DNA of 34,311 bases from Acidobacteriota bacterium (GTDB lineage: Bacteria > Acidobacteriota > Vicinamibacteria > Vicinamibacterales > UBA2999). Made by a program: the position numbers and the translations under genes. Each line of letters begins with the position of its first letter. Position 1 is the first letter of the stretch. The DNA lies in assembly GCA_003222635.1 (NCBI GenBank), contig QHWQ01000027.1, positions 1-34,311 on the forward strand. Direction: 5' to 3'. Shown piece after piece: positions 12,917 through 31,853 of the stretch. The notes under the pieces are model-generated. The model searched no databases. It was not told where the DNA came from and was given only the letters and a program-made list of their open reading frames with translations.

Positions 12917-15910
12917 TTAGAACAGCACCTTCACTCCCAGCTGCACCTGCCGCGACGAGTTCACCGTCCGCAATATCTGCCCGGCGGTGGCGAGCGGCGC
13001 CTCGTTCTGCGTCGCGCCGGCGAACACCGGCCGGGTGGGTGTGGCGAAGTTGGCGCGATTGAGCACGTTGAACACCTCGAGCCTGAATTGCAGCTTGGTG
13101 TCGCCCTTCAATGACTGGTTCTTCGTGAGCGAGGCGTCGACGTTCGCAAAGCCGGGGCCGCGCAGGAAGTTCCGAGGCGTGCTGCCGAAGGTTCCCTGCG
13201 GCTGCAGCTCGAACACGCTGGTGTCGAACCAGTGATTCGGATCACCCGTGACGATCTTGCGTGGATCGGTCCCGGGCTTCACGTTCGGCCGGTCTTCGGC
13301 TCCGCCGCCGAGGCTGCCCGCGCGCGACCAGTTGATCGTCTGTATCGACGGCGAGAACGGATAACCGCTGCGCATCATCAGCACACCGTTCAACTGCCAG
13401 CCGCGCAGCGCCGCGTTGTCGTGAAATGCGGGGAGCTCCCAGGTGCCGTTGGCCGTGAAGACATGGCGCGAATCGAACGAGGCTGCCGCCCACTCCGCAT
13501 CCAGGTTGTACGGATTCTGCGGATAGGTGGACCCGTTCACCGTGTCCATGCCGAGCTGCGCGTCGCCGTTGTCCATCGTCTTGCTGAGGGTGTAGGAGAC
13601 CTGCACCTGGTGGCCGGCACTGAAACGTTTCATCAGGCCCGTCTGCAGGGAGTTGTACGTCGAACGTCCATCGGAGGTGCGGTAGTCGATCGCCCCGAAG
13701 TTGGGATTGCGGCGCAATCCCAACTTCGGGGCGATCGACTACCGCACCAGCTCGCGCTGCATGTTGACGTTGTACGTCCATCCCATTGGCTGCTTGATGT
13801 GGTCGTCGAGCATGCGCAGGTTGAGCGACGACGTGGTCGTCGTCGACGGCCACACGGGTGTCGGAAACGGAATCGCGGTACCCGTGAAGTTGACGGACGG
13901 CGCGAACGGCCATGACGGAATCGCGAATCCGAGCGAGCTGGCGTACGGATTGTCCGTGTCGTAGTAGAGACCGCTGCCGCCGCGAATCGACGTGCGGCCG
14001 TTGCCGCCGACGTCCCACGCAAAGCCGAAGCGGGGCGAGACGTTGCGCAGTGACGGGTTGACGAACGGGCCCCCCGCAACCGTTGCAGGCGCCAGCAGGT
14101 CGGGCAGATACGCATCCCGGCCATCCTTGTCCTTCGGGAGCGTGAAGAACTCGTACCGCGCGCCGAGATTCAGCGTCAGGCCCGACGTGACGCGATAGTC
14201 ATCCTGGACGTAGAAACCGAACAGCGAGCTGGCCCGTCTGCGTGTCAGCACCCCGCAGGGCAGCACGCCCTGGAAGCGGCTGGGCGTACCAGCGAGGAAC
14301 TGCGCCAGGTTCGGGAAGGTGTAGAGGCCCCTGCTGTTCACCGTCGTCAGCTTGTCGGCGTACGAATGCTCGGCCAGCCCGCCGGTCTTCAGCAGGTGTT
14401 TCCCCCTCGTGTACGTGACATCGTCGCTCCACGTCCAGTAATCGATGTTCTGGTTCGAGGGCGAGATGTTGTCGTTGCCGAGCTGTCCCAGCCCTCCGAT
14501 CTGGATCGTGCCCATGAAGGGGGCTTCCGGGAAGAAGGAGAGCGGCGTCGACAAACTGTTCTGAGCGTACTGAACGTAGGCGAGCAGGCTGGTCGAGAAG
14601 CGCGCCGTATTGAGAAGCGTTGGGTTGAAGGTCCGTTTCTCCTCCACCGTAAGGAACTGATTGTCCGACGTCCCCCTCGTGAAGAACTGCGGAAGGCTCG
14701 TCGTCTGAATCGTGCCGGTGGCGATCGGATAGATCTGATGCGATCCGTCATAGGTATGGCGGACGAACAGGGAATCCTTGTCCGAGAGCTCGATGTCGAT
14801 GCGAGCTTGCGCGAAGTTCTCACGCGTCGGGCGCGTGAACTGGTAGTTGTACTGGCCGATGCCGGGCCCGAGATCGCGTCCGTTCGGCAGCGGATACAGA
14901 TCGAGGTATGGCCTGACCACCGGGTTGACCGTTCCCGCTCGGGCGGCCGCGGTGGGAACGGCCGTCAGGATCGTCATCCCCAGATCTTCCTGCAGCCGTT
15001 CGTACCCGCCGAAGAAGAAGATCCTGTTCTTCTGAATCGGTCCGCCCACCGTGCCGCCAAACTGATGGCGCGTCAACGGCGGCGGATCGCCGACGTCGAA
15101 GTAGTTGGGCGCGTCCATCCGGCTGTCGCGGAAGAACTCGAAGCCCGATCCGTGCACCTGGTTGCTCCCCGACTTGGTCGCGATGCTGACGACGCCGCCC
15201 ATCGCCCGGCCGTAATCCGCCGAGAACGCATTGGTGACGACGCGGAACTCCTGGATCGTCTCGACGCCAAGCGTGGTGTCGGCCGCGGTGACCGTCGCGA
15301 GGCCGGCGTACCCGCGGATGTTCGCGCCGTCCATCAGAAAGCTGTTCGACCGCCCGCCCATGCCGTTGATGTTCAACTGCACTCCGCGCGTGGCCGGCGC
15401 GGTGCCCGACTTCTCGGTGAACTGAGTGATGCCGGGCTGGAGCGTGGCGAGCGTGATGTAGTTGCGCCCGTTCAGCGGCAGCTCCTCGATCGTCTTCTCG
15501 AGGACGATCGCGGAGAGCGCGGACGAGCGCGTCTCGACCAGCGCACTCTCACCCGTCACGGTGATCGATTCCTGGGTCGCGCCAACCGAGAGGACGAAGT
15601 TCAGGCCCGCCTGCTGGGCGACCTGCAACGTGATGCCGCTCTGCACGCCGGTCCTGAACCCCTGCAGGCTGGCGCGCGTCTCGTACTTCCCGGGCGGCAG
15701 CCCGGGAACGGTGAAGTAGCCGTTCGCGTCGGTGACGGCATTCCGCGTCAGGCCTGTGTCGAGGTTGCTGATCACAACGTCGACGCCGGGCAGCACGCCG
15801 CCCGTTTCGTCTTTGATGGTGCCGGAGATGGTTGCTGACGTGATTTGCGCGACCGCGAGAGACGCACTTGCTACCAGGAGAACGACGCCGAGGGTCACTT
15901 TCAACCTCAT
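12917..15910 (-). pseudogene. Oar-like TonB-dependent receptor A, interrupted at a 73-bp palindrome
   Basis: ATG 15910 (GGGAGG SD) starts an intact signal peptide, a carboxypeptidase-regulatory domain (GTIKDETGGVLPGVDVVI... about residues 28-110), a plug (NGMGGRSNSFLMDGANIRG) and most of a large beta-barrel, but the frame stops at TAG 13739-13741 after NVNMQREL. The barrel resumes at about 13715 with NPNFGAIDYRTSDGRSTY and continues to LGVKVLF at 12917. The neighbour receptor (18472-21466) has about 46 extra residues between the matching points. Those residues are missing here, replaced by an inverted copy of the following 36 bases. Everything else aligns well, so the gene is either freshly inactivated or wrongly assembled. 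Function when intact: TonB-driven outer-membrane uptake, probably of large organic substrates. Confidence 0.85.
13676..13748. repeat. Perfect 36-bp inverted repeat with single-base centre
   Basis: Bases 13676-13711 are the exact reverse complement of 13713-13748, with one G at 13712 between them. One arm encodes receptor residues (PNFGAIDYRT, minus strand); the other arm has no coding sense and creates the stop codon. A perfect fold-back of this length at the point of a coding deletion is what template switching or an assembly fold-back leaves behind. Confidence 0.97.
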
Positions 15911-16018
15911 GACGGCCTCCCTGTCACTCAGGAAAAAGACAGGCACACCATAGCGAGGTTGAGAGACCGGATCAACCTACACCAACGTGCCTCCCGTGAC
16001 ATTCGCCGTCACTTCTGC

Positions 16019-17624: not shown

Positions 17625-18488
17625 ATGCCGAGGCCTACACTCACGATTTGCGTCTTCTTTCTAGCCAGTGTGATCGTCCTCGCTCAAAGAGCGGAAAAGC
17701 AGGAGCTCGTCGATATCGAGCTCATGACGTACCCCGAGATCTATTCCGCGATCCACGATCACGGTAAAACCACCGTTCTTGTATACAACGGCGGCACCGA
17801 ACAACGAGGTCCACATGCCGTGCTCGGTGGCCACACGCTGATGGCCCACGCAATCGCTCCAATGATTGCAAGAAAATTGGGCAACGCGCTTGTGGCGCCG
17901 GTTCTTCCATTTTCAGTGAATCCCGCCGGAGGCGTTGACCCGAAAATGCCGGGCGGCATCGAACTGTCTCCAGATCTGTTTCAGAAGGTGAACGAAGCCG
18001 TGGTGGATAGCATGGTCAAAAACGGCTTCAAGAACATCGTCCTGATGGGTGATCACGGCGGCGGCCAGGTCGAACTGAACAAGCTAGCCTCGGCAATGGA
18101 CGCGAAGTACGGCCCGCGGGGTACGCATGTCTATTTCTGCGGAGACGTGTACGAAAAATCGCGGCAGGAATTCGCAGTTTGGTTGACGAGCAAGCGATTG
18201 CCTCTCAGCAACCATGCGGGTATTTCGGATACTTCAACAATGCTCTATCTGCAGCCTGAACCCCAACAATGGGTGCGCAGTATTTACAAGACGACGATCG
18301 GTGATCCGGTCCTGCCGCCCGGTCAGCAGCCTGACCCGAATGTACCCCGCGTGAATAATGGCGTGACGGGTGACCCACGGCGCTCGACACCAGAAATCGG
18401 CAAACTGGTCGTTGAAATGAAAGTCAACAACGCTGTGGCGGAAATCAACAGATTGATCGGAAGAAGCCGCGTCAGAACAACACCTTAA
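17625..18488 (+). CDS. Secreted creatininase-family protein with altered metal ligands
   Basis: A 287-residue protein; ATG 17625 with GAGG six to seven bases upstream and a signal peptide (TICVFFLASVIVLAQ). The creatininase core is present: GGTEQRGPHAVLGGHTLMAH, PVLPFSVNPAG and MGDHGGGQVELNKL. In creatininase the metals are held by Glu34, His36, Asp45, His120 and Glu122. Here E59 is kept, but the His36 position is R61 and the Asp45 position is H70. The exported location and substitutions suggest a periplasmic amidohydrolase with a changed metal site or a non-catalytic homologue; the substrate is unknown. AT content and codon use look a little higher than in neighbours. Its 3' end overlaps receptor B by 17 bp, tail to tail. 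Confidence 0.75.
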   Translation: MPRPTLTICVFFLASVIVLAQRAEKQELVDIELMTYPEIYSAIHDHGKTTVLVYNGGTEQRGPHAVLGGHTLMAHAIAPMIARKLGNALVAPVLPFSVNPAGGVDPKMPGGIELSPDLFQKVNEAVVDSMVKNGFKNIVLMGDHGGGQVELNKLASAMDAKYGPRGTHVYFCGDVYEKSRQEFAVWLTSKRLPLSNHAGISDTSTMLYLQPEPQQWVRSIYKTTIGDPVLPPGQQPDPNVPRVNNGVTGDPRRSTPEIGKLVVEMKVNNAVAEINRLIGRSRVRTTP

Positions 18489-21466
18489 TCCCCAGCTGCA
18501 CCTGCCGCGAGGGGTTGACCGTTCGGACGACCTGACCGGCCGTCGCGAGCGGCGCCTCGTTCTGTGTCGCGCCGGCAAACACCGGCCTGGTCGGCGTGGC
18601 GAAGTTGGCGCGATTGAGCACGTTGAACACTTCGAGCCGCAACTGAAGCTTCGTGTCGCCTCGGAGTGCCTGATTCTTCACGAGCGACATATCGACGTTC
18701 GCGAAGCCGGGGCCGCGCAGGAAGTTCCGCGGCGTGTTGCCGACGGTCCCCTGCAGCGGCAGCTCGAACACGCTGGTGTCGAACCAGCCGTTCGGGTTGC
18801 CCGTAACGATCTTCTTGGGATCCGTGCCGGGCTTCACATTCGGCCGATCCTCGGCGTTGTTCGAAATGTTGCCGGTGCGCGACCAGTTCGGCGTCTGGAT
18901 CGAGGGCGAGAACGGGTAGCCGCTGTGCATCGACACGATTCCGTTCAACTGCCAGCCGCCGAGCACGGAGTTGTTGCGCAATGGCCGACGCAATCGTGTC
19001 GGTACTGAGCTGCGCGTCGCCGTTGTCCATTGCCTTGCTCAACGTGTAAGAAAGTTGGACCTGATATCCATTGCTGTACCGCCGCACGAGGCTCGTCTGC
19101 AGCGCGTGGTACGTTGACCGCCCGTCAGACCTCCGGTAATCGATGGTGCCCCACGCGGGATTCTGCCGCGGCGCTCCGGCCGGGAAGAAGAGCGACCCGT
19201 CGGCCTGTTTGACCGGCACGACGGGATTGCCCTCGATCGCGCTCACCAGGTCGTACCCCCGGGATCCGGCGTAGCCAACCATCATCGCCCAGCTCGCCGC
19301 GAGCTCCCGCTGGACGTTGACGTTGTACGTCACGCCCTTCGGTTGCTTGATGTGGTAGTCCATCGTGCGCATGCTGCGCGCGCCCACGGCGGTCGCCGTG
19401 GAAAACACCGGCGTCGGAAACGGAATCCCCGCGCCGCTGATATTCACGACGTTCACGAAGGGCGGCGACTGGAGCGTGATGCCGAGCGTGCTGTTGTACG
19501 GACCGTCAGTGTCGTGATAGAGCCCGCCGCCGCCGCGCACGGCCGTGCGGCCGTCGCCGCCGACGTCCCACGCAAAGCCGATGCGCGGCGCGACATTCTT
19601 CAGCGACGGGTTGACGAATGGCCCGCCCAGCACAGAGTCTGGCGACGTCCGCACATCAGGCAGATATGCATCCAGGCCGTTCTCGTCCTTCGGCACCGTA
19701 AAGAACTCGTAGCGAGCGCCAAGATTCAGCGTCAGCTTCGAGGTGACGCGGTAATCGTCCTGGACGTAGAAGCCGAAGAGCGTGTTCGGCCGCTGGCGGT
19801 GGAAGTTCGAGTCCGGCGTGTTGCCCTGGAAGCGGCTTGGAACGCCGGCCAGGAACTGCGCCAGGTTCGCGAAGGTATAGGTGCCGCGCGCATGGTTCGT
19901 CGTCAGCTTGTCGGCAAACGCGTGCTCGATGAGCGCGCCCGTCTTCAGCAGGTGCTTCCCCTGCGTGTAGGCGAGGTCATCGCTCCACGTCTTGTAGTCG
20001 ATGTTCTGCGACGATGGCTCGGCGGCGTAGTTGCCGACCTGCGACAGGCCTCCAATCAGGATGAGGCCCATGAACGGCGCTTCCGGCAGGAACGACAACG
20101 GCTGGCTCAGCGTATTGGCCGGATTCTGGATGTAGGTCAGGTGGCTCGAGGAGAAGCGCGCCGTATTGAGCAGGTTCTGCGTCAGCGTCCGCTTCGCTTC
20201 GACCGTGAAGAAACGGTTACCGGAATCCGACTTCGTGAAGAACTGCTCGAACCCCGTCGTCTGAATCGCGCCGCTCGAGACCGGCGCGACCTGGCGCGAG
20301 GCATCGTAGGTGTGGCGCACGAAGAGCGAGTCCTTGTTGGAGAGCTGGACGTCGACGCGTCCCTGCGCGAAGTTTTCCCGCGTCACGCGGTTGTACTCAT
20401 ACGTGTACTGCCCGATCCCGGGCCCGAGGTCGCGGCCGTTCGGCAGCGGAATGAGGTCGAGGTAAGGCCTGACGACTGGATTGACGGCTCCGCCGCGTGC
20501 GGCCGCCGTCGGCACCGCCGTGATCACCGTCGTGCCCAGATCCTCCTGCAGTCGCTCGTACCCGCCGAAGAAGAAGACCCGATTCTTCACGATGGGCCCG
20601 CCCACGGTGCCGCCAAACTGATGTCGCGTGAACGGCGGCGGGTCGCCGAGATCGAAGAAGTTGGGGGCGTCCATCTTGCTGTTGCGGAAGAACTCGAACC
20701 CCGAGCCGCGCAGGAGGTTCGTTCCCGCCTTCGTCGCAACGCTGATCACGCCGCCCATCGCGCGCCCATAGTCGGCCGAGAACGCGTTGGTGACGACGCG
20801 GAATTCCTGGATCGTCTCGACCCCGAGGGTGCTGTCGGCCGCCGTGACCGTGGCTTGCCCCGCGTACCCTCGCATATTGGCGCCGTCAATCAGATAGCTG
20901 TTCGACCGGCCGCCCATGCCATTGATATTGAGCTGAACGCCACGCTGCGCCGGCGAGGTGCTGGTGCGTTCGGTGAACTGGACGATGCCAGGCTGCAGCG
21001 TGGCCAGCATGATGTAGTTGCGGCCATTCAGCGGCAGCTCTTCGATCGCTTTCTCGAGAACGATCGCCGAGAGCGCGGACGAGCGCGTCTCGACGAGCGC
21101 ACTCTCGCCGGTCACGGTGATCGATTCCGCGGTTGTGCCAACCGAGAGGACGAAGTTCAGCCCCGCATCCTGGCCGACCTGCAGCGTGATGCCGTTCTGC
21201 ACGCCGGTCCTGAACCCCTGCAGGCTGGCGCGCGCCTCGTACCTTCCGGGTGGCAGCCCGGGCACCGTGAAGGAGCCGTTGGAGTCTGTGACGGCGCTCC
21301 GCGTCAGGCCCGTATCGAGATTCGCGATCACGAGATCGACGCCCGGCAGTACGCCGCCGGTTTCGTCCTTGATCGTGCCGGAGATGGTCGCCGACGTGAT
21401 TTGCGCGACCGCGAGGGATGCAGTTGCCACCAGGAGAACGACGCCGAGGATTACCTTCAGCCTCAT
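18472..21466 (-). pseudogene. Oar-like TonB-dependent receptor B, broken by an out-of-frame deletion
   Basis: ATG 21466 with AGGAGG SD begins signal peptide, carboxypeptidase-regulatory domain (ISGTIKDETGGVLPGVDLVI), plug and barrel, very similar to receptor A. At about 18980-18995 the frame changes: MDNGDAQLSTDTI is followed by unrelated residues, while the correct barrel continues in another frame as RNNSVLGGWQLNGIVSMHSG through to LGIKVLF (TGA 18472). Receptor A shows what is missing: about 40 residues including NGSTYPQNPYNLDAEWAAAS and SRHVFTANGTW. So a deletion of roughly 120 bp, not a multiple of three, removed two barrel strands. The long open frame continuing past the break to 18485 is not the true C-terminus. 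Upstream is otherwise complete. Confidence 0.85.
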
Positions 21467-30939: not shown

Positions 30940-31853
30940 CGCGCCACTCCCTCTTGCGACCTCGCGTGCCGGCACCGCCGCGCGACCGCGAACCCGTACG
31001 CCGATCCCGGCGAGCTGACGACCGCGGAAGGACAGCGCCTGCTGCGGCGCACGAGCTCGGGCTTCATGTGTCCGTGGCGCCGAGCGCGACCCCGCTGCTG
31101 ACGCACGAGGCGCTGCTGGCGCTGGCGACCGCGGGCGTCGACGCGATTTCGCTGAGTCTCGATGGCTCGAACGCCGAGCGCCACGACGCGATCGCGGCAT
31201 CAACGGCACCTACGAGCGGACGCTCGAAGCCGCGCGCGTCGCGCGGGTCGTTCACCTGCCGTTTCAGGTCAACACGCTGGTGTGCGCCGACACCGTTGAC
31301 GATCTGCCCGCCATCTACGAACAGGTCGCGCAGCTTGGCGCCGCGCGGTGGATTCTTTTCTTCCCTCGTGACCGTCGGCCGCGGGCAACTGCTGCAGCCG
31401 ATTTCGGCGGAACGCGCCGAGCAGGTGCTCGAGTGGGTGGCGGGGATCAGCCGCCGTCCGCCGGCGCCCATCATCACCACGACCGAAGCCCCGCAGCTGC
31501 GCCGCATCGCGATGCGGCGGTCGGGCAGAGATGGAGGCGGAGGCGGCGGTGCGCATCACGCCGCTGGCGTGCGCGACGGCAACGGCATCATCTTCATCTC
31601 GCATACGGGCGATATCTGTCCGTCAGGATTCCTCGTGGTGCCGGTGGGTAACGTCCGCACGGCCAACGTCGTGGACGTCTATCGCGAGGCGCCCCTCTTC
31701 CTGCAACTGCGCGATGCCGACAGCTTCCACGGCCGCTGCGGCCGCTGCGAGTATCGCTGGATGTGCGGCGGGTCGCGCGCGCGTGCCTGCTGCGCGTCGG
31801 GCGGGGATCCTCTGGCCGAGGATCCGCTCTGTCAGTACGGCGGGTCCGCCTGA
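30940..31853 (+). pseudogene. Decayed radical SAM/SPASM protein
   Basis: Pieces of one radical SAM/SPASM protein are spread over three frames. (1) About 30955-31044: CDLACRHRRATANPYADPGE, where the cluster motif CxxxCxxC has Arg (CGC at 30976-30978) for the third Cys. (2) From 31050: HELGLHVSVAPSATPLLTHE through SLSLDGSNAERHDAI, after loss of roughly 35-40 codons including the usual GGDP region. (3) From 31196: GINGTYERTLEAARVAR through ARWILFF, after a one-base loss (ATCGC for ATCCGC). (4) From 31365: LVTVGRGQLLQPISAER onward after one extra C at 31364. The SPASM end is good: FISHTGDICPSGFL and GRCGRCEYRWMCGGSRARA. The N-terminus before the Cys motif is not recognisable. Function of the intact family is peptide or cofactor modification; this copy is dead or misassembled. 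Confidence 0.8.

Follow-up and report, generated by a model that had tools for sequence, protein, structure and literature searches.

The sequence and comparative data suggest that a TonB-dependent receptor gene in this genome was probably inactivated recently by a short-range template switch, an event that would have left a perfect palindrome with an in-frame stop codon in the part of the gene encoding the barrel. The window analysed is the whole of a 34,311-base contig (C196) from a 5.63-Mb assembly in 428 contigs; this assembly is of the metagenome type and fragmented, 88% complete and 2.4% contaminated. At the receptor gene, the nearest named relatives are metagenome-assembled Acidobacteria, several of which are labelled gp6.

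The gene that houses the palindrome is located at 12917-15946 on the minus strand and encodes a receptor of the carboxypeptidase-regulatory-domain type. It is present in two parts: (i) an N-terminal part of 735 codons (13742-15946, minus strand) with the CarboxypepD_reg domain (PF13620), the Plug domain (PF07715) and the start of the barrel (PF25183, positions 1-544), and (ii) a C-terminal part (12917-13720, minus strand) that contains the remainder of the barrel (PF25183, positions 586-838 of 838) and is open with the frame unchanged past the lesion. All three domains score above the cut-off, and the barrel is divided between both parts. The listed start codon of the N-terminal part is GTG, and an ATG is found 12 codons further in. 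Neither part contains further stop codons. In comparisons with four relatives, pN/pS is 0.33-0.37 in the N-terminal and 0.31-0.36 in the C-terminal part, i.e. purifying selection is similar in the two halves, and because of this similarity the break is either recent or absent from the organism. We considered that the gene might be an old pseudogene; this is ruled out by the similar purifying selection in both parts together with the lack of further stops. The truncated outer-membrane receptor is presumably non-functional.

The palindrome consists of two 36-nt arms at 13676-13711 and 13713-13748 that are 100% complementary (36/36 nt) and separated by a single axis base at 13712. The upstream frame ends within it at a TAG (13741-13739 as read on the minus strand) and the C-terminal part continues in the same frame, which bears out the proposal of the first-pass annotation that a perfect 36-bp palindrome lies at the coding break. 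On the coding strand, the RNA is predicted to fold over the palindrome with a free energy of -87.5 kcal/mol (z -14.5) and a 3-nt loop. In a scan of 1,415,079 bases, about a quarter of the same genome, no other perfect hairpin (loop of at most 10 nt) has arms above 17 nt; for a single-contig genome from the same order, 400,000 bases yielded perfect arms of up to 13 nt, and 232,459 bases from other loci yielded arms of up to 21 nt. Given how much shorter the next longest arms in the scanned DNA are, chance does not account for a 36-nt arm that is built from codons of the gene itself and lies at a break. Another hairpin with a 1-nt loop and 17-nt arms, CCCAACTCCCAAGCCAG, is present in the same genome on contig C123 (L119:12117-12151), where it adjoins repeats of the type GGGATTTGGGATTTGGG.

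To identify what was replaced, the gene was compared with seven relatives (L047-L052 and L008; 57-75% identical in the N-terminal part) and with a tandem paralogue in the window (18485-21466, minus strand). In all seven relatives and the paralogue, a constant interval of 44 residues, or 132 nt, extends from the L of QREL (QRDL in one) to the first native N; in the window this interval holds 13 codons (V R stop S I A P K L G L R R), corresponding to a net in-frame loss of 31 codons (93 nt). Most of the replacement sequence repeats, in reverse complement, the native codons for NPNFGAIDYRT that lie downstream. Because the latter are native and the upstream segment is their reverse complement, the arm at 13676-13711 (minus strand), which comprises these codons with neighbouring bases and aligns with the relatives and the paralogue, is the source, and the arm at 13713-13748 (minus strand) is an inserted inverted copy that replaces most of the 44-residue stretch and whose sequence is absent at this site in the relatives. 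The in-frame TAG at 13739-13741 (minus strand) is created by this copy, as had been anticipated from the sequence of the window, and the earlier estimate of approximately 46 replaced residues was close and needs a minor adjustment, the comparison giving 44 residues replaced and 31 lost net. On both sides of the palindrome the flanks are collinear with the relatives and in frame.

In total, the inserted bases reproduce a neighbouring sequence exactly in reverse complement, and ancestor-collinear sequence, as defined by the alignment with the relatives, is found on both sides of them. We suggest that these features arose in the cell by the following sequence of events, in which the strand and direction of copying are deduced: (i) as the plus (antisense) strand of the receptor gene was being copied, the growing 3' end would have folded back near ATTGCG/CGCAAT, (ii) the folded end would have copied approximately 36 nt of the strand synthesised immediately before, and (iii) it would then have rejoined the original template at a point beyond most of the 44-residue stretch, with the net loss of 93 nt, yielding the perfect palindrome, the in-frame stop and the truncated receptor. 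The first switch, out of the template, would lie at the axis at 13712 and the second switch, back to it, at about 13748. One fold-back by itself would reverse the sequence permanently; here it regains the correct strand and position, and two switches are therefore needed. Judged by its geometry, the palindrome is the putative product of a double template switch with the order 3-2-1-4 of the four-point model. Microhomology may be present at the switch junctions; the nearest relatives available for comparison there are approximately 75% identical in protein.

The class of short-range template-switch mutations includes the quasipalindrome-associated mutations in Escherichia coli. The receptor lesion resembles mutations of this class, as described by the four-point model and in E. 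coli, in the inverted adjacent copy, the return to the original template and the perfect palindrome, and differs from them in its net loss of 93 nt. In great apes, the 3-2-1-4 order is one of two majority patterns and yields single inverted repeats (PMC7954356). In yeast, short inverted templated duplications arise by fold-back at double-strand breaks (PMC11724301); there, too, a short adjacent inverted duplication is joined to the other end, and its length, mostly about 5-34 bp, is similar to the 36 nt found here, although in a yeast rather than a bacterium. Fold-back copying of one strand is also shared with the palindromic chimeric reads generated during library preparation (PMC10908179), but these are low-frequency reads, whereas the receptor palindrome is the contig consensus and is followed by a return to the original strand.

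These chimeric reads, which contain inverted-repeat and palindromic sequence, make it possible, though in our judgement doubtful, that the palindrome is an artefact: a chimeric fold-back molecule could have formed during library preparation or amplification, or two contig ends could have been joined wrongly, and the product would have been taken up into the consensus where coverage was low. The palindrome is known from a single assembly, in 428 contigs and 88% complete, and both this and the fragmentation count in favour of an artefact and against a mutation in the cell. The same holds for the undamaged downstream receptor frame, as an artefact would leave the two halves as intact-looking as a recent break does, and for the neighbouring paralogue, which is also broken; its lesion of about 100 nt at a distance of 5.5 kb could hint at a locally poor assembly. 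On the other hand, an artefact of this form presupposes either a pair of switches or scaffolding across a join that carries no Ns, as a lone fold-back misses the right strand and place. Specifically, we infer that only a molecule that spans the site and switched a second time could provide the join to GAGCTG, given that a read from a single fold-back would continue with the flank in inverted form. The palindrome is also far from the contig ends (13.7 and 20.6 kb), and a second long hairpin was not found in 1.42 Mb of the assembly; because it is the sole long hairpin there, no systematic artefact is seen, and a systematic assembler artefact was rejected given that no other perfect hairpin exceeds 17 nt (loop of at most 10 nt). 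A fold-back chimera at a contig end, which the first-pass annotation had offered beside template switching, is contradicted by the position of the site at 13.7 kb of 34,311 bases, by the collinear flanks and by the return of the sequence to the correct strand and position, while the annotation's proposal of an inverted duplication with deletion by template switching fits the relatives. Our search of the literature on palindrome artefacts in metagenome assemblies returned nothing specific to the present case. The weights given to the template-switch mutation and to the artefact are judgements rather than computed values.

Alternatively, the palindrome could be a functional element, i.e. a regulatory hairpin, an invertible switch or a mobile palindrome residing in the receptor gene. 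The very stable RNA hairpin predicted here would agree with such a role, but both arms are the receptor gene's own codons, a spacer of one base offers no segment for inversion, and the host gene is truncated. Following the suggestion that the same palindrome be sought in related genomes, we found no copy in 42 other genomes of the family, where there are short partial matches only, and a 30-mer from the arm had no exact match in viral contigs; a conserved element was rejected on these grounds, and a function of any of these kinds is almost certainly not the explanation. Nothing in the data points to a functional role for the palindrome.

About 101 nt present in the relatives are missing from the tandem paralogue, which lies 5.5 kb away. 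The gap follows GACACGATTGCGTCGGC (plus strand, about 18981-18995), the frame changes after it, and within the gene the lesion lies slightly downstream of the position that corresponds to the palindrome. ATTGCG occurs twice at this junction (18981-18995). It is conceivable, though very improbable, that tandem receptor paralogues of this lineage are inactivated time and again at closely similar positions in the barrel through different replication errors, e.g. under selection by a phage or bacteriocin that exploits the receptor. Elsewhere in the window, an imperfect 29-nt inverted repeat (90%, loop of 8 nt) at 459-524 lies just past an open frame ending at 456, and a related 24-nt copy at 31844 is 92% identical; this repeat looks like a terminator or a dispersed intergenic element. 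Among the 59 genomes searched, and leaving the window itself aside, the best match to the receptor DNA is L008, in a genome from another family of the order (G046), and this match far exceeds those in the two genomes of the same genus. A best match outside the family suggests that the receptor may have been transferred or patchily lost.

A short-range template switch in the receptor gene would be ordinary in kind, i.e. a recognised accident of DNA copying. If the palindrome is an artefact, the implication is that perfect palindromes at coding breaks in metagenomes need a check of the reads before a pseudogene is called. If it is real, the receptor gene provides a clean case of template switching inactivating a bacterial gene, with the source arm resolved at the level of the sequence.
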